A model generated the notes under the pieces. That model was not told the DNA's origin, made no database searches, and saw nothing but the letters and a program-made list of their open reading frames with translations. Below, one piece after another: positions 47,134 to 59,130 of a stretch of DNA of 64,000 nt. The stretch comes from Cognaticolwellia sediminilitoris. Its GTDB lineage: Bacteria; Pseudomonadota; Gammaproteobacteria; Enterobacterales; Alteromonadaceae. A program made the position numbers and the translations under genes. The stretch lies in the NCBI GenBank assembly GCA_002104535.1, contig NBOG01000006.1, positions 237,817 through 301,816 on the forward strand, in the 5' to 3' direction. Each line of letters opens with the position of its first letter. The first letter of the stretch is position 1.

Positions 47134-48615
47134 TTAATGGTTTTCTTTTTGTAAGTTATATTTACGCATCTTTTCTACTAACGTCGTGCGGCGCATCCCC
47201 AAAAGTTCAGCAGAGCGAGCGACAACCCAATCATTTTTATCTAAAGCTTGAATGATTAACGCTACCTCTAATTCAGCTAAATAATCTTTCAAGTTCAGGC
47301 CATCGCTAGGCAATACGTCAACGGCTTTACCTTGAGTTCCGTTTGAAGATTCTGAATGGCTATTTTCTGTTTCGTCTTCATCATCGTCATAATCGAAACC
47401 AGAAAACAATTCATTTATTGCCTCGCGCTCTTGTATCTCTTCTGGATATTCGGGTTGATAGTCATCAACATCTAAATGACGGTATTTCAGTGGCAACTGA
47501 CCAACATTAACCACTTGTTCACCAAACATAATAATCATACGTTCGATTAAATTAGAAAGCTCTCGAACATTACCCGCCCAAGGATGTTCTTTTAATGACT
47601 CTATCGCTTTATCAGTAAAACGGACTGATTGTCCTTGTTCAGCGGCAAACCTAGAAATCAGCTCCTGCAGTAACAAAGGGATATCGTCTTTTCGTTCTCT
47701 TAATGCCGGTGTTTCAATTGGAAAAACATTGAGTCGGTAATAAAGATCTTCTCGAAACTGATTAGTTTTAATCATATCTTCTAAATGTTGATGCGTTGCA
47801 GCAATTATACGAACATTCGCCTTAATGCTTTTCGTTCCCCCCACTCTTTCAAAAGTACGCTCTTGTAATACACGCAAAAGTTTTACCTGCATCGGTTGCG
47901 GCATATCACCAATTTCATCAAGGAATAAGGTACCGCCTTCAGCCATTTCAAATCGTCCTTTACGCGTTGATATAGCGCCAGTAAAAGCGCCCTTTTCATG
48001 ACCAAATAACTCACTTTCCAATAAATCTGCTGGAATTGCCCCACAATTAACCGGCACGAATGGCCCTTTACTTCGATCTGAAAGATTGTGAATATTACGA
48101 GCAACCACTTCTTTACCTGTGCCCGACTCACCTAAAATCAATACATTAGCGGCAGTCGCAGCAACTTGTTCAATTAAAAACCTTACTTGCTGCATGGGCT
48201 CACTGTTACCGACCAATGAGCGAAATAAGGCATTAGGACCACTAACGTTACGTTTTGACGGTAAGTTATTATGGTATTGATGGCTGTGATGAATCAGCTC
48301 TGTCAATTGAGCATAGTTTAACGGCGTGGTGAGTTCGCCGATGATATTGACGTAACCATCAATTTGTTGTTTATCAATAATATCGTGAAATACAAATGGG
48401 AAGGTGGGATGAGATTTAATAATGTCTTGTAGCTTTGCAGAAATATCACCACACAATATCACCGTTAAAATATTTGGCGTTTGTGCTAAATACTTATCAA
48501 TTTGATCCTCAGAGAAAACATGGAAATGCTCACCAACAAAGGCTAAAACGGTTTCTAATTGATGACGTCTTGCTGCGTCGTTATCGACGACTAGAATATG
48601 TTTTTGGCCTTGCAT
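47134..48615 (-). CDS. flrA: Master flagellar regulator FlrA (FleQ), sigma-54 activator
   Basis: A 493-residue protein. The N-terminal FleQ domain (1-115) is receiver-like; in FleQ homologues it is not phosphorylated and the protein responds to FlhG/FleN and c-di-GMP. The AAA+ domain has Walker A G162-E-S-G-T-G-K168-E and the sigma-54 contact loop G209-A-F-T-G-A214. The C-terminal Fis-type helix-turn-helix is [20 protein letters not shown]. An acidic, serine-rich linker (about 400-445) precedes it. AGGG lies upstream of the ATG. It should drive the sigma-54 promoters of flrBC, fliE, fliK and flhA. Confidence 0.95.
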
Positions 48616-49034: not shown

Positions 49035-49319
49035 ATGTTAATTATTAACGGCACAGCTGAACTTATGAAAGACACAGAGAATTTAAATAAAGGCGACAGA
49101 TATGAATTCAATATGTTTTCATCACATATGCCGCTTGAAGACCAGCTCAACCAAATAGAAGAGTATTTAGTTACACGAGGCTGGGATAATATCGAAGTAG
49201 TTGATAATGGTATTGTTGGTGATCCAAACGATATTGAACACGATGTTTTACTTACAGCATATGAAAAAGCAAAAAGTGAAGGCTTTGCTGTAACAATAAA
49301 CAATCAACCCTTAGTATAA
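49035..49319 (+). CDS. Hypothetical acidic protein in the fliS island
   Basis: A 94-residue soluble, acidic protein; AGGA precedes the ATG. No signal peptide, membrane helix or known motif is visible. The middle (P-L-E-D-Q-L-N-Q-I-E-E-Y-L-V-T-R-G-W-D-N-I-E-V) suggests a helix followed by a strand, and the C-terminal half alternates similarly, so a small alpha/beta fold is likely. I do not recognise the family. A sigma-54-like site upstream and fliS 65 bp downstream suggest a flagellar role, perhaps export or filament related; this is inference from position only. Confidence 0.7.
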   Translation: MLIINGTAELMKDTENLNKGDRYEFNMFSSHMPLEDQLNQIEEYLVTRGWDNIEVVDNGIVGDPNDIEHDVLLTAYEKAKSEGFAVTINNQPLV

Positions 49320-49384
49320 TTTATCCCACTGAACTTTTTTAAATTTAGTATTATTAAATTATCGCATTATAATTGGAGATATCT

Positions 49385-49783
49385 ATGACTCACGCGTCAT
49401 TAAAAAAATATCAACAAGTTAACAAGAGCACCGCTCAAGAAGCGTCACCCTATCAGTTGGTTGCTATGTTATTTCAAAAATTGTTGGATAATATTGCTAC
49501 CGCTAAAGGGGCTATTACTCAAAAAAATTACGACAAAAAAGGCACCGAGCTATCGAATGCAATTGCCATTATTGGCGTATTAGAAGCCTCAATTGATTAT
49601 GAACAAGGTGGTGAAATTTCAAATAACCTTGCTTCAATTTATATGTACTGTTCGGAGCAGTTATTGTTAGCAAGCACCCATAATGATGTTGACAAGCTCA
49701 ATGAAGTGGCGCAGATATTAATCCCTATTAAATCTGGTTGGGACAGCATTCCAACTGAGAACCAAGAGCAGGTATGCTTTTAG
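49385..49783 (+). CDS. fliS: Flagellin export chaperone FliS
   Basis: A 132-residue helical protein that binds the C-terminal D0 of flagellin and prevents premature polymerisation. Family landmarks: Y-Q-Q-V near residue 9, A-S-P-Y-Q-L-V-A-M-L-F-Q-K-L-L-D near 20, and G-G-E-I-S-N-N-L-A-S-I-Y-M-Y in the middle. The ATG at 49385 has GGAGAT five bases upstream; a TTG four codons earlier is unlikely. It is followed by a 10-base overlap with the next gene. It lies on the opposite strand from fliD and the two main flagellins, which is unusual. Confidence 0.93.
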   Translation: MTHASLKKYQQVNKSTAQEASPYQLVAMLFQKLLDNIATAKGAITQKNYDKKGTELSNAIAIIGVLEASIDYEQGGEISNNLASIYMYCSEQLLLASTHNDVDKLNEVAQILIPIKSGWDSIPTENQEQVCF

Positions 49784-50139
49784 TGACCACTGAGATTGCT
49801 AACACTCTGGAAAATATCATTTCGGTATCTAAGGCTATTCTTGTTCAAATAGAGCCGAATGATATCTCCAGTAAGCGATCAACAAGATCAAGGGGTGACG
49901 ACATATCCAAAGACAAAGAGTTAATTGATATGATGGCCAAACGTGATCGCTTAATTCACCAAGTATTCGAACAATTTAGCCATGATGAACTAAAAAAACA
50001 TTCCTCGGCATTAACGTCAATTTATTCGCTAGATAAAATGCTTGTAGAGAATATTAATAAAAGTCAAAAATCAGCAAAATCAAAAATAGTGGCGTTTAAG
50101 AAAAATAAAAAAGCTATTAACATTTATCAAAAAATTTAG
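49774..50139 (+). CDS. FliT-like putative flagellar chaperone
   Basis: A 121-residue, charged, helical protein. It overlaps fliS by ten bases, so translation is probably coupled. FliT, the chaperone of the filament cap FliD, is small, poorly conserved and usually next to fliS; length, helical content and position fit. The middle (D-M-M-A-K-R-D-R-L-I-H-Q-V-F-E) is reminiscent of FliT's central helix. The tail is lysine-rich. The assignment rests mainly on position; it could be another small flagellar protein. Confidence 0.6.
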   Translation: MLLVTTEIANTLENIISVSKAILVQIEPNDISSKRSTRSRGDDISKDKELIDMMAKRDRLIHQVFEQFSHDELKKHSSALTSIYSLDKMLVENINKSQKSAKSKIVAFKKNKKAINIYQKI

Positions 50140-50275: not shown

Positions 50276-50302
50276 TAAAGTTCTGCTTTAACCTGCCGAT
50301 AA
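50276..50302 (+). promoter_or_regulatory. Sigma-28 promoter of the proteolytic flagellin gene
   Basis: TAAAGTTC at -35, then GCCGATAA (50295-50302) after exactly 15 bases following TAAA. This matches the FliA consensus TAAAGTTT-N11-GCCGATAA at all but one position. The predicted leader is about 80 bases. Confidence 0.93.
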
Positions 50303-50393: not shown

Positions 50394-52142
50394 TTGTTTA
50401 CGATTAATACAAATGTCAGCCAGCTATTTATGCAGCGGCAATTAAATGAAGTCAATAACGGCTTAGCGACAACTTTTAGTCGTTTGTCTTCAGGCATGCG
50501 TATTAACTCAGCGAAAGATGATGCTGCCGGCTTACAAATATCAAATCGACTTACCTCTCAAATAAATGGCCTTGTTGTCGCACAACGTAATGCAAATGAT
50601 GGTATTTCACTCGCCCAAACAGCAGAAGGTGCATTAACAGAAAGTACCAATATCTTGTTCAGAATGCGTGATTTATCCTTACAAGCAAGTAATGGTTCAC
50701 TTTCCACGAAGGATCGAGAAGCATTAGATAAAGAGTCGACTCAACTTAAGGCAGAGTTAAATCGCATTAATAATACCACCACATTTGGTGGCAACAACGT
50801 CTTTGATACCAACGCAAATACAGCCGTCTTCGATAAGGTTGAACGCGATATTATTACCACACTGCAAAGTGGTTTATTAGCAGAATCTGAAAACATTATT
50901 AAAGACCAATTAGGTTTAATTGGAGACGGCGCGACTTTTAAAATTAATTTAGAAAACATTGATGGCGCAAGTGGCGTTCTAGCATCAGTATCATACGCAG
51001 GTGCCGGTACAAATTTGGTGATGAATATCGATCTTGGCGATTTCTCTACCAATACCAGTGACAAAATCACGCAATTAAAAAGCACAATCCTCCATGAAAT
51101 GACCCATGCAGTAATGGCTAACAATATGAATTTAAGTTCAAATCCTACGTGGTTTGCAGAAGGAACTGCTGAAGCGATTAGAGGTGCTGATACACGGCTT
51201 AAAGCTGATATAGCCAATTTAGGCGTAAGTGCCATTAAATCCGGATTAAATGCCATCTTTACTAATAACAGTGCACCAACTGGTACCGCAGCTGAAGTCG
51301 CCAGTGTTTATTCAGGCGGGTATGTGGCTATGCGCTACCTTGAAAGCCAATTTGGCGCTAATGGCATCAAGAGTATGATGTCAACATTAGCAGGTGGAGG
51401 CAGTTTTGACGCAGCTATAAGTGCTGCCTCAAACGGTACACTTGCTAATGCTAGCGCCTTTCAATCACAGCTTATGTCCGGCACCGTTTTCGAAGACTTC
51501 ATTACGAGTGATATGAATTTAACAAATATAGATAATGGCGCTTTCGGTGGTTTTGACGCCAGCGGTGGATTAGTACGAGCGGAAACTATTGTGGGTGGTG
51601 TCAGTAGCAAAACTACAGCAAACTTTGCTACCACTTTTGTTTCAGGGGATGACGACAATGCCAATGATTTTGATCCAGCAACTAACTACGCAGCAGCGGG
51701 CTTCAAAGAAGTAAGGTTGGAGGATTATAATGTTGAAATCAGTGACGCTGTCGGTCAAAAAACTGCCTTTCAAGTTGGTGCAAATGCTAATGAAACACTA
51801 AATATGGTTTTAGGTGGTTTTTCTACCACAGTGTTAGGGCTTGAAGATTTCGATTTAGTTGATAATCCACAAGGGGGTACAACAGCTATTGACGACGCAC
51901 TAAGATATCTCGATGGACAGCGAAGTGGATTGGGTGCCTTTATGAACCGTATCGAGCACACCATCGCAAATTTAAGCAACATCCAAGAAAATGTCACTGC
52001 CAGTCGATCCCGCATCCAGGATACTGATTTTGCTATTGAAACAGCTAATCTAACTAGGTTTCAAATTCAACAACAAGCTATCACAGCGATGATGTCACAA
52101 AGTAAGTTACAGTCTGAACTTGTTTTGAAGCTTTTAGGTTAA
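50394..52142 (+). CDS. Proteolytic flagellin (flagellinolysin): flagellin with HEXXH metallopeptidase insert
   Basis: A 582-residue protein. Residues 1-140 are a flagellin N-terminus ([20 protein letters not shown]), and about 450-582 a flagellin C-terminus ([16 protein letters not shown]). Between them is a ~300-residue insert with the zinc motif H234-E235-M-T-H238. A downstream W-F-A-E256-G-T-A-E260 offers the glutamate third ligand of gluzincins. This is the layout of flagellinolysin, whose surface-exposed insert is an active protease in assembled filaments. The extreme ends (D0) differ clearly from the two main flagellins. The only in-frame start is TTG with a poor ribosome-binding site. 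A sigma-28 promoter and a leader hairpin precede it. Activity and incorporation are inferred. Confidence 0.9.
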
Positions 52143-52371: not shown

Positions 52372-53796
52372 TTAGTTATTGTCTCTCACCACGCCAGGCA
52401 TATTATCCAGTTGTTGCTGTAAATAGCTGCTGGTTGAATTTAAGTTAGCAACCAGTAAATCCATTGCATTATATTGGGCAAATAAACGCGCCTCTAATGC
52501 TTCCATTTTACGTTCAAAAGCAAGCTTTTCATCATCTAGTCTATCTAATTGAGTAGTCCTACTGTCAATACGGTTTTGAATGAGTCCATCACTGTCAGTG
52601 TAAAACTCAGTTAAATTTTTCAATGAGTTAGCAAAACCATCTTTAGACTCACTACCAACAAAAAACTGTTGCACAGCATCAACATTGTTATCAATATACT
52701 CAGTTAAATCTTCGGTGTCTAAGCTTAAAACACCATAACGGTCGCTGCGTACACCAAGTTCTGACAGCGATAGCGTTTTACCATCACCAATATCAAAACC
52801 TTTACTAAACTCTTGACGTAACTTCCCCATGATACCACGTAACAATGAGTCCCCGGCAAGCGGGCCGCTACCATCTTCTCCTGCACGTCCTAAATTTTTA
52901 CTCAATTCTTGCAATTCGTTGTAACTTTCGATGAACTGCTCTAAACCCGCTTGAATATTGCTATTATTGGCAGAAAGGCTAATTTGGCTAACATCATCAT
53001 CAACGCTATGCATTTTCTTTGCGGTAATATCGATTCCATCAATTACATTTTTAAATTCATTAGTACTATTAGAAATAACTAACGTGCCATCAATAGTAAT
53101 TTGTGCGTCAAGCGCTTTATCAACTTCTGCTAAGTTCGTGGCATAGGTAGGAGAGGCTTCATCAGCATCATATGCTAAGCGTGACAGCCCAACATTATCG
53201 GTGTTGTTGCCATCACTAACATCGGTAACGGTTGTGGTTATTGCATTAGCAACACCAGTTTCCTTACTAGTTAAAATCAGGTGTTGCCCGTCATTATCAG
53301 TAACTATTGTGGCGATTACTGATTCATTATCTGAGCTCTCATTAATTGCATCTCTGATATCACTTAAGGTATCACTCGTACCAACTGCGATATCAAAGCT
53401 TTCACTATTTACCGCAATATTTAACGTACCCTCACCAACCGCTTCGCTACCATCAAAAGCCCCCGACATTAATTTATGGGCTTTAGCTAGCGCATCTACT
53501 TGCACAGAATAATTACCAATTTGTGCATCTTTATTAGCAGATAAATTAACAAAAGTATCGGAACCACTGGCTTTACGTAGTTGATAATTGTCAGCATCAG
53601 CTAAGCTAGCGATAGAGTTTGTAACACTTTCTAAAGCAGACTTTAATGCGCCAACAGCTGAAATATCAGTGGTTAATTTTGCTTCTTGTTTATTTGTACG
53701 AGAGACAAAAGGAGCGGTTTCAGCACCAACTATAGCATTGACAATTTCGCTAACCTGTAAACCTGAGCCTATTCCTGTAAACGTTAAATCAGGCAT
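52372..53796 (-). CDS. fliD: Flagellar filament cap protein FliD
   Basis: A 474-residue cap protein (HAP2). The N-terminal D0 starts L-T-F-T-G-I-G-S-G-L-Q-V-S-E-I-V-N-A-I-V. The FliD_N and FliD_C domains follow, and the C-terminal coiled coil has Y-N-A-M-D-L-L-V-A-N-L-N-S-T-S-S-Y-L-Q-Q-Q-L. AGGAGG precedes the ATG. Length is normal. It is 94 bp after flaG. No fliS follows it here, unlike the usual order; fliS is on the other strand beyond the proteolytic flagellin gene. Confidence 0.96.
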   Translation of the reverse strand: MPDLTFTGIGSGLQVSEIVNAIVGAETAPFVSRTNKQEAKLTTDISAVGALKSALESVTNSIASLADADNYQLRKASGSDTFVNLSANKDAQIGNYSVQVDALAKAHKLMSGAFDGSEAVGEGTLNIAVNSESFDIAVGTSDTLSDIRDAINESSDNESVIATIVTDNDGQHLILTSKETGVANAITTTVTDVSDGNNTDNVGLSRLAYDADEASPTYATNLAEVDKALDAQITIDGTLVISNSTNEFKNVIDGIDITAKKMHSVDDDVSQISLSANNSNIQAGLEQFIESYNELQELSKNLGRAGEDGSGPLAGDSLLRGIMGKLRQEFSKGFDIGDGKTLSLSELGVRSDRYGVLSLDTEDLTEYIDNNVDAVQQFFVGSESKDGFANSLKNLTEFYTDSDGLIQNRIDSRTTQLDRLDDEKLAFERKMEALEARLFAQYNAMDLLVANLNSTSSYLQQQLDNMPGVVRDNN

Positions 53797-54514: not shown

Positions 54515-55897
54515 TTAACCAATTAAGCTTAATGCAGCTTGTGGCAACTGGTTAGCCTGGGCAAGAATAGAGGTACCTGCTTGTTGCAAGATCTGGTTCT
54601 TGGTCATTTGCGCTGTTTCAACAGCAAAGTCAGTATCTTGAATTCGGCTACGTGACGCTGATACGTTCTCTTGGATATTAGCCAAGTTACTGATAGTGTG
54701 ACTCAAACGGTTTTGAACAGCACCTAAGTCAGCTCGTTGTCCATCTATTTGAGATAATGCTGCGTCAATAGTACCAATGGCTGTTTGTGCCGTTGTTGCA
54801 CTAGTTGATATATCAACAGATGCAATCGTAGTTTTAGCTGACGCTGTTCCACCTGAAATTGTACCTGTTGTACCTGAGATAGAAAAAGCACCATCTGAGC
54901 TCAAAGATAATTTAGATGAGAAACTTGAAGTAGCAGCCGTGCTATCAGTACCGCCTAATGCCGTATCCCCCGCAGTCGCTCCAGAAATATCAATACCTGC
55001 AACACCTGTCGCTCTGATAGTTATAACACCTGCTGTACTTACAGAAGTATCATAACCAGCCTTACCTAGATCTTCTGCTAACGCTGTGTTATCAGTACCA
55101 TAATTAGCTAAAGCAAAAGTATTACCACCTATCGCCAAAGTACCAGAACCAGCAACTTTTAGCTCAATGGTTGTTTCAAGTACTGCTTCAGCTTCAACAC
55201 CTAAGTTTAATGCATTTAAACCTGCAGCAGTTTCAACTGCGGTATCAGTAGCTACTGATGTGTATGAACCAGTACCTTTAGGTCCATTAAGTGTAAATGC
55301 GTTAGTCGTACCTTCAGCTAAAGTACTTAATGCTGCACCAGCTGCACCTACACCATATTCTGTACCCGCAGAGTTTAGGGTATAGTTACCTAAATCTGTA
55401 GATGAAATACCTGAAAGTGTTACTGATATAGTTTGGTTAGCGTCTGAACCAACTTGGAAATTTTTTGTACCAAAATTTCCGTCTAATAAGTTAGTACCAC
55501 CAAAAGAGGTTGTATTAGAAATACGCGTTAACTCTGTTTGTAGAGCGCCCACTTCTTTTTGAAGAGCATCTCTATCAGATTGACTGTTAGAACCGTTAGC
55601 TGATTGCAATGCTAGCTCACGCATACGCTGTAAGATACTAGTTGATTCTTGCATCGCACCTTCAGCAGTTTGCGCCATTGAGATACCGTCGTTAGCGTTA
55701 CGTTGTGCAACACCTAAACCATTTATTTGAGATGTTAAACGGTTTGAAATTTGTAGACCCGCTGCATCATCTTTTGCGCTGTTAATACGCATACCTGATG
55801 ATAAACGTTGCATTGATGTTGCTAGACCTTCACCTGATTTACTTAAGTTACGTTGTGCATTTAGTGAAGATGTATTTGTGATTACTGATAAAGCCAT
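54515..55897 (-). CDS. fliC1: Flagellin, proximal copy (sigma-28-dependent)
   Basis: A 460-residue filament subunit, larger than the ~270-380 residues usual in Vibrio or Shewanella. D0/D1 ends are canonical ([30 protein letters not shown]). The central ~200 residues are rich in A, G, S and T and form the surface D2/D3 part. It is nearly identical to fliC2, including the central region. AGGAG precedes the ATG; a sigma-28 site lies 90-117 bp upstream and a terminator follows. The symbol is a local label for one of two paralogues. Confidence 0.95.
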
Positions 55898-55987
55898 AAT
55901 AAAACTCCTGATTACAAATGTGTAATTCGTTTGTTAGTAGTTACATCAGGTGCCTAGTAAATTAATCAAGCTCCCGTTCTAATAACA

Positions 55988-56014
55988 TTAACGGCAGCAA
56001 ATAAATTAACTTTA
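55988..56014 (-). promoter_or_regulatory. Sigma-28 promoter of fliC1
   Basis: On the minus strand TAAAGTTA-N11-GCCGTTAA: correct spacing (15 bases after TAAA) and one mismatch to GCCGATAA. Confidence 0.88.
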
Positions 56015-56182
56015 ATCTTTTTTATCAATTTATTTAATTAAACGCTGTATAAACTTACTTATTCGCTTAAATATTAGGCTTTATAATAACTGGGCGGATT
56101 TAATATTGACTATTTAGCGACTAAAGTCGTGCCCTACAACCTCATTTATATGTAAGTCCTAAAGAATCAAGAAAAAAATCAT

Positions 56183-56210
56183 AAAAAAACCGAACAATAG
56201 TTCGGTTTTT
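56183..56210 (-). terminator. Terminator of fliC2
   Basis: On the minus strand AAAAACCGAAC-TATT-GTTCGGTTTTTTT. The A- and T-runs on both sides would allow bidirectional use. Confidence 0.92.
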
Positions 56211-56256: not shown

Positions 56257-57642
56257 CTAACCACCAAGCAAGCTTAAAGCGGCTTGTGGTATCTGATTAG
56301 CTTGAGCTAAAATCGACGTACCTGCCTGCTGCAATATTTGATTCTTGGTCATGTTTGCAGTTTCGATTGCAAAATCAGTATCCTGAATTCGGCTACGCGA
56401 TGCTGATACATTTTCTTGGATATTAGCTAAATTACTAATAGTGTGGCTGAAACGATTTTGTACCGCACCTAGTCCAGCTCTTGAGTTGTCGATTTGTGAC
56501 AAGGCTGCATCTATCGTTACAAGCGCCCCCTGTGCTGTCGCCGCACTAGTACCAACATCTATACTTGCCACTGTGGTTTTAGTTGAACTAGTTCCACCTG
56601 AAATTGTTCCTGTCGTGCCAGCAATAGAGAATGCGCCATCTGAACTCAAAGATAATTTAGATGAAAAACTTGATGTAGCAGCAGTACTATCAGTTCCACC
56701 TAATGCCGTATCTCCTGCGGTAGCCCCAGAGATATCGATTCCTGCAACACCTGTTGCCCTAATTGATATTACACCTGTTAAACTTACAGAAGTATCGTAA
56801 CCGGCTTTACCTAAGTCTTCTGCTAACGCTGTGTTATCAGTGCCATAATTAGCTAATGCAAAGGTATTGCCACCTATAGTTAATATTCCAGAACCCGCAG
56901 CCTTTAGTTCAATGGTTGTTTCGAGTAAGGCTTCTGCTTCTACACCAAGGTTTAAAGCATTTAAGCCCGCAGCTGTTTCAACCGCACTATCAGTAGCAAC
57001 TGACGTGTATGAACCAGTACCTTTAGGACCGTTAAGCGTAAATGCATTAGTTGTACCTTCGGCTAGTGTGCTTAATGCGGCGCCAGGTGCACCTACACCA
57101 TATTCAGAGCCCGCAGAATTTAAGGTATAATTACCTAAGTCGGTCGCCGAAACACTACTAAGTGAAACAGAAATAGTTTGGTTTGCATCAGCACCAACCT
57201 GAAACTGCTTTGTTCCAAACGTGCCATCAAGTAAGTTAGTACCACCAAACGATGTGGTATTAGAAATACGCGTTAACTCTGTTTGTAAAGCACTGACTTC
57301 TTTCTGAAGTGCATCTCGATCAGATTGACCATTTGAACCATTGGCCGCTTGTAGCGCCAATTCACGCATTCGTTGTAAAATACTGGTTGATTCTTGCATG
57401 GCACCTTCAGCAGTTTGTGCCATTGAAATACCATCGTTAGCATTGCGCTGTGCAACCGCCAACCCTTGTATTTGCGATGTTAGTCTGTTGGATATTTGCA
57501 AGCCAGCTGCATCATCTTTTGCACTATTAATTCGCATACCAGATGATAATCGTTGCATAGCCGTTGCCAACCCATCACCAGATTTTGTCAAGTTACGTTG
57601 AGCATTCAATGATGCCGTGTTAGTTACTACAGATAAGGCCAT
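56257..57642 (-). CDS. fliC2: Flagellin, distal copy (sigma-54-dependent)
   Basis: A 461-residue filament subunit. Nearly identical to fliC1 from the start to the C-terminus, with scattered substitutions (for example Q-G-L-A-V instead of N-G-L-G-V near residue 60) and an extra final glycine. AGGAG precedes the ATG. Upstream, at 57863-57880, is a sigma-54 site, not a sigma-28 one, with a leader of about 210 bases. That suggests an earlier expression class than fliC1, as with FlaA in Vibrio. The symbol is a local label. Confidence 0.95.
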
Positions 57643-57862
57643 GATAGACTCCTAGTAATTTAAATTATCTTTACATTGTTTTTGCGTTAATAAATTTGAC
57701 GGCTTAGCCAGACTTACAACACTGTTAATTTCAGCCCTTTACTCACAGTTACTAAAACAACTTATGCAATGCTTTTGGGCTTCATTGGCCTTAACAGCCA
57801 CGGTTTTGCGATTAAGGCTTCTAACCTGAAACCGCCAGTTTTATGTTTATCTAAGATTAATA

Positions 57863-57880
57863 AAGCAATACTTGTACCAA
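57863..57880 (-). promoter_or_regulatory. Sigma-54 promoter of fliC2
   Basis: The minus strand reads TTTGGTACAAGTATTGCTTT: GG-N10-GC with TTGCT at -12 and TGGTACA at -24. About 220 bp upstream of the fliC2 ATG and just after flgL. The leader contains GCCTTAA/TTAAGGC arms that could pair. Confidence 0.78.
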
Positions 57881-57924
57881 AATTAAACAATCGAACATAA
57901 AAATCGACTAAATAAGTAAAAAAA

Positions 57925-59130
57925 TTATCGAATATAATTAAACAAAGACAAACCTTGCACTTGCGTAAACGCTTGCTGCGCGGCCTGTAGCGCTATTTTT
58001 GATTGTTCGAAAGTAGATATTGCTTTAGCAAAATCTAAATCTTCAATTGACGACCTAGCAGAAGATAAATACAGCGCAGTATCTAAATGGTTATTCTTTT
58101 GACGATCGATAACTTGTAAATTAATACCTGACTGGGCGCGACGTGATGTTAAGTGATTCATTGAGTCACTTAACTGGCCTAAGATATGATCAAAGTCGAC
58201 CTGTATCTGTGGATCTTCACCTTTACTGGACTTGGAGCTGATCCAATCAATAGCTGACTTAATAGTTTCAAAAACACTGATATTTTGCTCTGGAGCTATT
58301 GAAAAGTTATCACCCGGCAATGGATTGCCGCTTAATTTAACCTCGATACCATTAAAGGCAATGGTTTGCCCAGCTACATAACCGGCAATATTGGTAACAT
58401 TGCCAGCACCATCAGTAATGGTTAAATCTGTTTCAGTGGTAAAGTCAAAGGTGAAGTCTGCAGGGTTTAGCGCGCTGTTATAAATACTTGGATCGGCGAT
58501 AACGGCACTTTCAACACTAACACCTGACGTGTTTATATTATAATTAGCGGAAAAATCACCAACAGCATTAGGCACTTTCTCAAATATGTTTTCGCCACTT
58601 TGATTAGTCGTAATAGACACATTTTTTGCTATTTGTAATTCTCGAACACCATTGTCACCACGATAGCTTACCGAGTTATCCGTTTGTATAACAAATGGCG
58701 CCTCATCGACTTGATAACCGGCAAAGACATAACCACCCGTTTCATCTTGTGTATTGGCAATAGCTAATATTTGCTCCAAACTATGACTAGCCTGTTGAGC
58801 AATTGAGTCAAGGTCTTCACTAGAATAAGCACCATTATTTGCTTGCAGTAGCAAATCTTTTAACTCATTCATAATATCTTCAGCATTGGCAAGTGAAGTA
58901 TCAATTAGTCCGTTTTGATTTTCGGCTTGTGTGATATTACGCTGATACTTTTCAATGCTAGCCAGATCATTTTTATACCCAGCCAAAGTACCATAAGAAA
59001 CAGCATCATCTTTTGCAGTAAGTACTCGCTTGCCACTTGAAATATAACTGACTTGTTCACTAACACCAGATTGCTGATTAGACATTTGCAAGCCAGTTTG
59101 AATATAAAACTGTGATGTTGAAACGCGCAT
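57925..59130 (-). CDS. flgL: Flagellar hook-filament junction protein FlgL
   Basis: A 401-residue junction protein (HAP3) with flagellin-like terminal helices: M-R-V-S-T-S-Q-F-Y at the start, A-K-A-I-S-T-F-E-Q-S-K-I-A-L-Q-A-A-Q-Q-A-F at the end. GGAGC precedes the ATG. It lies eight bases after flgK and is followed by the fliC2 promoter region. Confidence 0.95.
   Translation of the reverse strand: MRVSTSQFYIQTGLQMSNQQSGVSEQVSYISSGKRVLTAKDDAVSYGTLAGYKNDLASIEKYQRNITQAENQNGLIDTSLANAEDIMNELKDLLLQANNGAYSSEDLDSIAQQASHSLEQILAIANTQDETGGYVFAGYQVDEAPFVIQTDNSVSYRGDNGVRELQIAKNVSITTNQSGENIFEKVPNAVGDFSANYNINTSGVSVESAVIADPSIYNSALNPADFTFDFTTETDLTITDGAGNVTNIAGYVAGQTIAFNGIEVKLSGNPLPGDNFSIAPEQNISVFETIKSAIDWISSKSSKGEDPQIQVDFDHILGQLSDSMNHLTSRRAQSGINLQVIDRQKNNHLDTALYLSSARSSIEDLDFAKAISTFEQSKIALQAAQQAFTQVQGLSLFNYIR

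Follow-up and report, generated by a model that had tools for sequence, protein, structure and literature searches.

A flagellinolysin gene in a flagellar cluster of Cognaticolwellia sediminilitoris

The gene, its product and its active site

Our analysis concerns a flagellinolysin gene carried by a 64,000-nucleotide stretch of contig NBOG01000006.1 of Cognaticolwellia sediminilitoris (hereafter the window, in whose coordinates all positions are given). The gene is a single open frame on the forward strand with the following features.

50394-52142, forward: flagellinolysin gene (FlaMP), 582 aa, TTG start; NF033876 323.7 bits, cut-off 205
50403-50813, forward: flagellin N-terminal region, residues 4-140; Flagellin_N, PF00669, E 7e-40
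50826-51593, forward: gluzincin-like metallopeptidase insert, residues 145-400
51030-51032, forward: D213, aligned with the Asp of three Clostridium rows that corresponds to Ca-binding Asp206 of FliA(H)
51093-51107, forward: HEMTH zinc motif, residues 234-238, from the alignment
51150-51173, forward: WFAEGTAE, residues 253-260, with putative third zinc ligand E256 and basement A259, both in 43 of 43 alignment rows
51882-52136, forward: flagellin C-terminal region, residues 497-581; Flagellin_C, PF00700, E 7e-21
50276-50302, forward: sigma-28 (FliA) type promoter, 15 of 16 consensus positions, starting 118 nt before the start codon

The match to the NCBIfam flagellinolysin equivalog NF033876 spans residues 111-512 (E 2e-96), and the insert is flanked by complete flagellin N- and C-terminal regions. 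On sequence grounds the product adds a member to a known family (flagellinolysin, MEROPS M101; PMC5595980, PMC7643111) and is no new kind of protein. A protein search of the organism's own genome returned no second copy, the other matches being two ordinary flagellins and a flgL-like gene. An earlier note on this DNA had described a flagellin with intact terminal domains and an HEXXH metallopeptidase domain, belonging to an already described family, and the family match, the catalytic residues and the predicted fold bear this out; its insert of about 300 residues does lie between the two terminal regions, but measures about 255 residues.

The HEMTH motif and the WFAEGTAE segment stand where that note had placed them, with E256 at 18 and E260 at 22 residues past H238. 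H234, E235, H238, E256 and A259 are invariant in an alignment of 43 relatives, in part by construction because the rows were picked by a search whose motif includes E256. Free of this selection bias, HExxH followed by WFxEG is kept in all 24 family genomes with a match above the NF033876 cut-off, our own included. All 43 alignment rows keep E256 and 40 of them E260, so that E256 rather than E260 is expected to be the third zinc ligand. The characterised enzyme, FliA(H) of Clostridium haemolyticum, binds zinc through H233, H237 and E262, with A265 as basement residue and D206 as calcium ligand (PMC5595980); the three-residue step from E262 to A265 fits E256 and A259. A candidate for the calcium-binding Asp ahead of HExxH is D213, which aligns with an Asp 27 residues before the first His in three Clostridium rows, FliA(H) itself lying outside the alignment; over the 43 rows this column holds 32 D, 9 N and 2 other residues.

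Structure searches with the full-length predicted model gave only flagellins among the matches listed (best 50 each), and the insert was therefore folded alone. The resulting model (predicted local distance difference test score 90) supports a gluzincin fold resembling collagenases and M30 and M1 peptidases, with the zinc motif aligned with that of the collagenases. The protease fold covers approximately residues 145-400, with strands at 412-473 outside it. Comparison with the nearest relative (L021/L037, 80% identical) gave a proportion of synonymous differences (pS) of 0.79, which is saturated, and of nonsynonymous differences (pN) of 0.12 for the whole gene, and 0.80 and 0.12 for the insert alone, indicating that the protein is under purifying selection.

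Flagellar setting, promoter and start region

The genes around flagellinolysin are those of a flagellar cluster.

47134-48615, reverse: flrA/fleQ-type regulator
49035-50139, forward: conserved 94-aa protein, fliS and fliT-like gene (fliT named from position only), upstream of flagellinolysin
52372-53796, reverse: fliD, convergent neighbour
54515-55897, reverse: ordinary flagellin, sigma-28-type promoter (14 of 16); Pfam and promoter scan
56257-57642, reverse: ordinary flagellin, sigma-54-like site (9 of 11); Pfam and promoter scan

Elsewhere the window codes an FlrB-like kinase, an FlrC-like sigma-54 activator, FlaG, an SRP54-type GTPase (FlhF-like) and a ParA/MinD-type ATPase (FlhG-like), which together with the FleQ/FlrA-type regulator we take to mark a polar-type flagellar system. 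This agrees with the polar flagellar locus of the earlier note, whose two ordinary flagellins are likewise present beside the gene. The 94-aa protein ahead of fliS (49035-49319) shows 77-81% identity across six genomes of the genus, and no Pfam or NCBIfam match was found for it.

The sigma-28-type match upstream of flagellinolysin (15 of 16) exceeds the best match in 300 shuffled stretches, which was 12; the box of fliD is weaker, at 13. The two ordinary flagellins are apparently on different promoters, one sigma-28-type (within 55898-56200) and the other sigma-54-like (within 57643-57942), the score of the latter being reached or exceeded in 6 of 300 shuffles.

The TTG is likely the true start of the gene, because no in-frame ATG follows before codon 13 and GTG occupies the equivalent position in the nearest relative. 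Start regions were then compared over loci up to L052 together with L063, L064, L071 and L084, counting copies that share their first 200 residues once and keeping only copies matched by the pattern, which left out disrupted or partial ones. Among 30 distinct gammaproteobacterial flagellinolysins the start is GTG in 15, TTG in 2 and ATG in 13 (in L023 an upstream ATG was used, probably wrongly), so that 17 of 30 have a non-ATG start as against none of 14 ordinary flagellins, and a Shine-Dalgarno tetramer is present in 1 of 30 as against 14 of 14. These flagellins come from the loci of the 30 copies and from L071 and L084, which contributed no flagellinolysin; the window flagellin at 54515-55897 stands outside the counts and by eye has ATG and CAGGAG. 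Median pairing energies are -2.4 kcal/mol for the flagellinolysins and -6.9 kcal/mol for the flagellins (p 1e-7, the relatives not being independent). The contrast is one with flagellins and not with genes at large, since 47 open reading frames of the window (median -3.5) do not differ from the flagellinolysins (p 0.12). Nor is a weak start region general in the family, because all 7 Firmicute copies with a start found have a strong Shine-Dalgarno (six Firmicute loci had no identified start and are outside this count). A tally of sigma-28 -10 boxes, 23 of 30 for the flagellinolysins and 0 of 14 for the flagellins, is set aside because its pattern misses GCCGTTAA, present in flagellin 54515.

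Taken with the sigma-28-type promoter, the start region suggests that flagellinolysin is a co-regulated minor subunit limited at translation. Neither "start codon" nor "Shine-Dalgarno" appears in the main text of PMC5595980, "start codon" is likewise absent from that of PMC7643111, and the feature does not appear in titles or abstracts on flagellinolysins or proteolytic flagellins among the matches listed.

Distribution and origin

Of 17 genomes of the genus, 3 carry flagellinolysin; in the family sample it is present, by NF033876 above cut-off, in 24 of 196 genomes, representing 10 of 52 genera. It is an accessory gene, placed at one of two sites in the flagellar cluster. The window and genome G056 (L125, L037) share the order flrA (reverse), 94-aa protein (forward), fliS (forward), fliT-like (forward), flagellinolysin (forward) and fliD (reverse). 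At the other site, between flrA and the 94-aa gene, flagellinolysin is found in G091 of the same genus (L123) and in ten named-record Colwelliaceae loci (L039-L047, L049), and the L042 protein is identical to that of G091. All six genomes of the genus examined without the gene (L117-L122) keep the order flrA, 94-aa gene, fliS, fliT-like, fliD, with no space for it at either site. Related species with and without flagellinolysin at otherwise similar loci offer a natural comparison. Separately, flrA and flrB stand about 2.3 kb apart in one genome of the genus (L120:5556-7852), against 0.3-0.6 kb in others.

Three Methylophaga-like loci (L052, L064, L084) carry the gene between fliS and flrA, the copies in L064 and L084 being split, and certain other copies likewise appear broken or split. 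No match to other flagellar-cluster genes was found in the DNA examined near L038 (Thalassomonas), L050, L051, L053 and L063, and the flagellar-cluster setting is therefore not general. A contig of Clostridium aestuarii has both a 1148-residue open reading frame containing a flagellinolysin insert (L069:6787-10230) and a second flagellinolysin gene (L091).

The protease domain also occurs outside flagellins. A profile of the insert scored 88-148 bits on ten Selenomonadaceae/Selenomonadales loci (L098, L100, L101, L102, L105, L107, L108, L109, L112, L113), whose proteins all have RTX repeats above the Pfam cut-off and no flagellin domain, as judged by Pfam, since a crude flagellin pattern label also misses true flagellins. 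A 688-aa Desulfovibrio protein (L099) with a haemolysin-type calcium-binding-related domain scored 151 bits on this profile and 202.2 bits on NF033876, just under the cut-off of 205. Scores were 43-47 bits for seven Riflebacteria-type loci coding for proteins of about 430 aa, and 26-29 bits for three M9-like collagenases of the family, which places the RTX-repeat proteins nearer to flagellinolysin than M9. These proteins may represent a reservoir or an offshoot of the domain, and they bear on its origin, which PMC5595980 describes as undetermined.

Backbone trees, which are quick, have long branches and rest on the 35 fetched copies that passed filters, place the Colwelliaceae flagellinolysins in one clade (18 rows, support 100) adjoining the resident flagellins (support 87). 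For the flagellin backbone, the approximately unbiased test rejected the view that the whole gene arose once (p 1e-37; 34 copies vs 17 flagellins, one long row omitted), also with proteobacterial rows only (p 0.005; 29 copies vs 15 flagellins). Recent gene conversion with the resident flagellins was likewise discarded, the N-region DNA being just 62-63% identical with a longest identical run of 14 nt. Judged from these sequences, backbone and insert have partly separate histories, in line with the proposal made in PMC5595980.

Interpretation and comparison with known systems

We are highly confident that the gene codes for a true flagellinolysin, on the combined strength of sequence, family membership, predicted fold, conserved residues, promoter match and gene order. 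It would be transcribed by sigma-28, exported through the flagellum and copolymerised via its flagellin core with the two ordinary flagellins, so that the filament surface would display a calcium-stabilised zinc gluzincin endopeptidase. Zinc would be held by H234, H238 and E256, E235 would serve as general base, and D213 would form part of the calcium site, while weak translation initiation (TTG, no Shine-Dalgarno) probably keeps the enzyme a minor share of the filament. It probably acts on proteins close to the cell, cleaving ahead of hydrophobic residues like the two characterised enzymes; a filament mixing all three flagellins could, as the earlier note supposed, digest polymers on particles.

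Several observations weigh against this conclusion. Peptidase_MA_2 matches residues 223-345 with 29.3 bits, below the Pfam cut-off of 32.4, and Peptidase_M9 matches the insert with 17.4 bits, below the cut-off of 26; neither an M9 collagenase nor a plain Peptidase_MA was accepted as the family of the insert on such matches. To these are added the motif-based choice of alignment rows and the absence of the gene in 14 of 17 genomes of the genus, which makes it dispensable. Against the dosing idea stands the likeness of the start regions to those of other window reading frames.

Among the alternatives, we find it unlikely that the protein is a genuine flagellinolysin but barely produced, or set free as a soluble protease rather than built into the filament: the TTG start without a Shine-Dalgarno, the patchy presence across genomes and the disrupted look of some copies elsewhere would fit this, but the gene has a sigma-28 promoter, an intact flagellin core, a protein under constraint and a start region no weaker than those of other window reading frames. 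That the insert keeps the gluzincin fold in a structural or adhesive role and no longer cuts is very improbable, for although many flagellin outer domains are not known as enzymes (PMC5595980) and a predicted fold does not by itself show activity, the zinc, base and basement residues and the calcium Asp are all kept, the insert is under constraint, and the motif persists in 24 of 24 above-cut-off genomes.

Beyond the true-flagellinolysin reading itself, we put forward tentatively, as a proposal somewhat more likely to fail than to hold in full, that Gammaproteobacteria dose the protease flagellin by design: sigma-28 would turn it on together with the late flagellar genes, and a start region lacking a Shine-Dalgarno in most copies, and often ATG as well, would keep a potentially self-cutting enzyme sparse in the filament. 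In the same proposal the protease domain would be a mobile cassette, acquired by several flagellin backbones and also by RTX-repeat proteins. Flagellinolysins make the propeller a long enzyme surface; our findings add the placement of the gene, its apparent mode of expression and other proteins with the same protease domain, and the start-region contrast offers a testable explanation for a possible minor share of the enzyme in the filament.

Like FliA(H) (PMC5595980), the protein combines a flagellin core with a gluzincin insert that has HExxH (233-237 there), a distal zinc Glu, an Ala basement and a Ca-binding Asp, the last of these by alignment here, and in both cases structural flagellin accompanies the enzyme. 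Between the second His and the zinc Glu, FliA(H) has a distance of 25 by the numbering of PMC5595980, against 18 here; unlike FliA(H), the present gene belongs to a Gram-negative polar-type system, and it lacks the strong Shine-Dalgarno of the 7 Firmicute copies with a start found. The flagellinolysins of Hylemonella gracilis and Pseudoalteromonas tunicata (PMC7643111) represent the family in Proteobacteria; in H. gracilis the isolated insert is itself an active protease dependent on Ca and Zn, and the gene lies outside flagellar clusters, whereas ours lies between the fliT-like gene and fliD. The M9 collagenases (ColH, ColG and the Grimontia collagenase) have a similar fold by prediction, with the zinc motif aligned, although the sequence match is weak and the domain here sits within a flagellin. 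The Selenomonadales proteins (L098-L113) share the same peptidase domain by profile but, in the ten tested and unlike flagellinolysin, join it to RTX repeats rather than to a flagellin.
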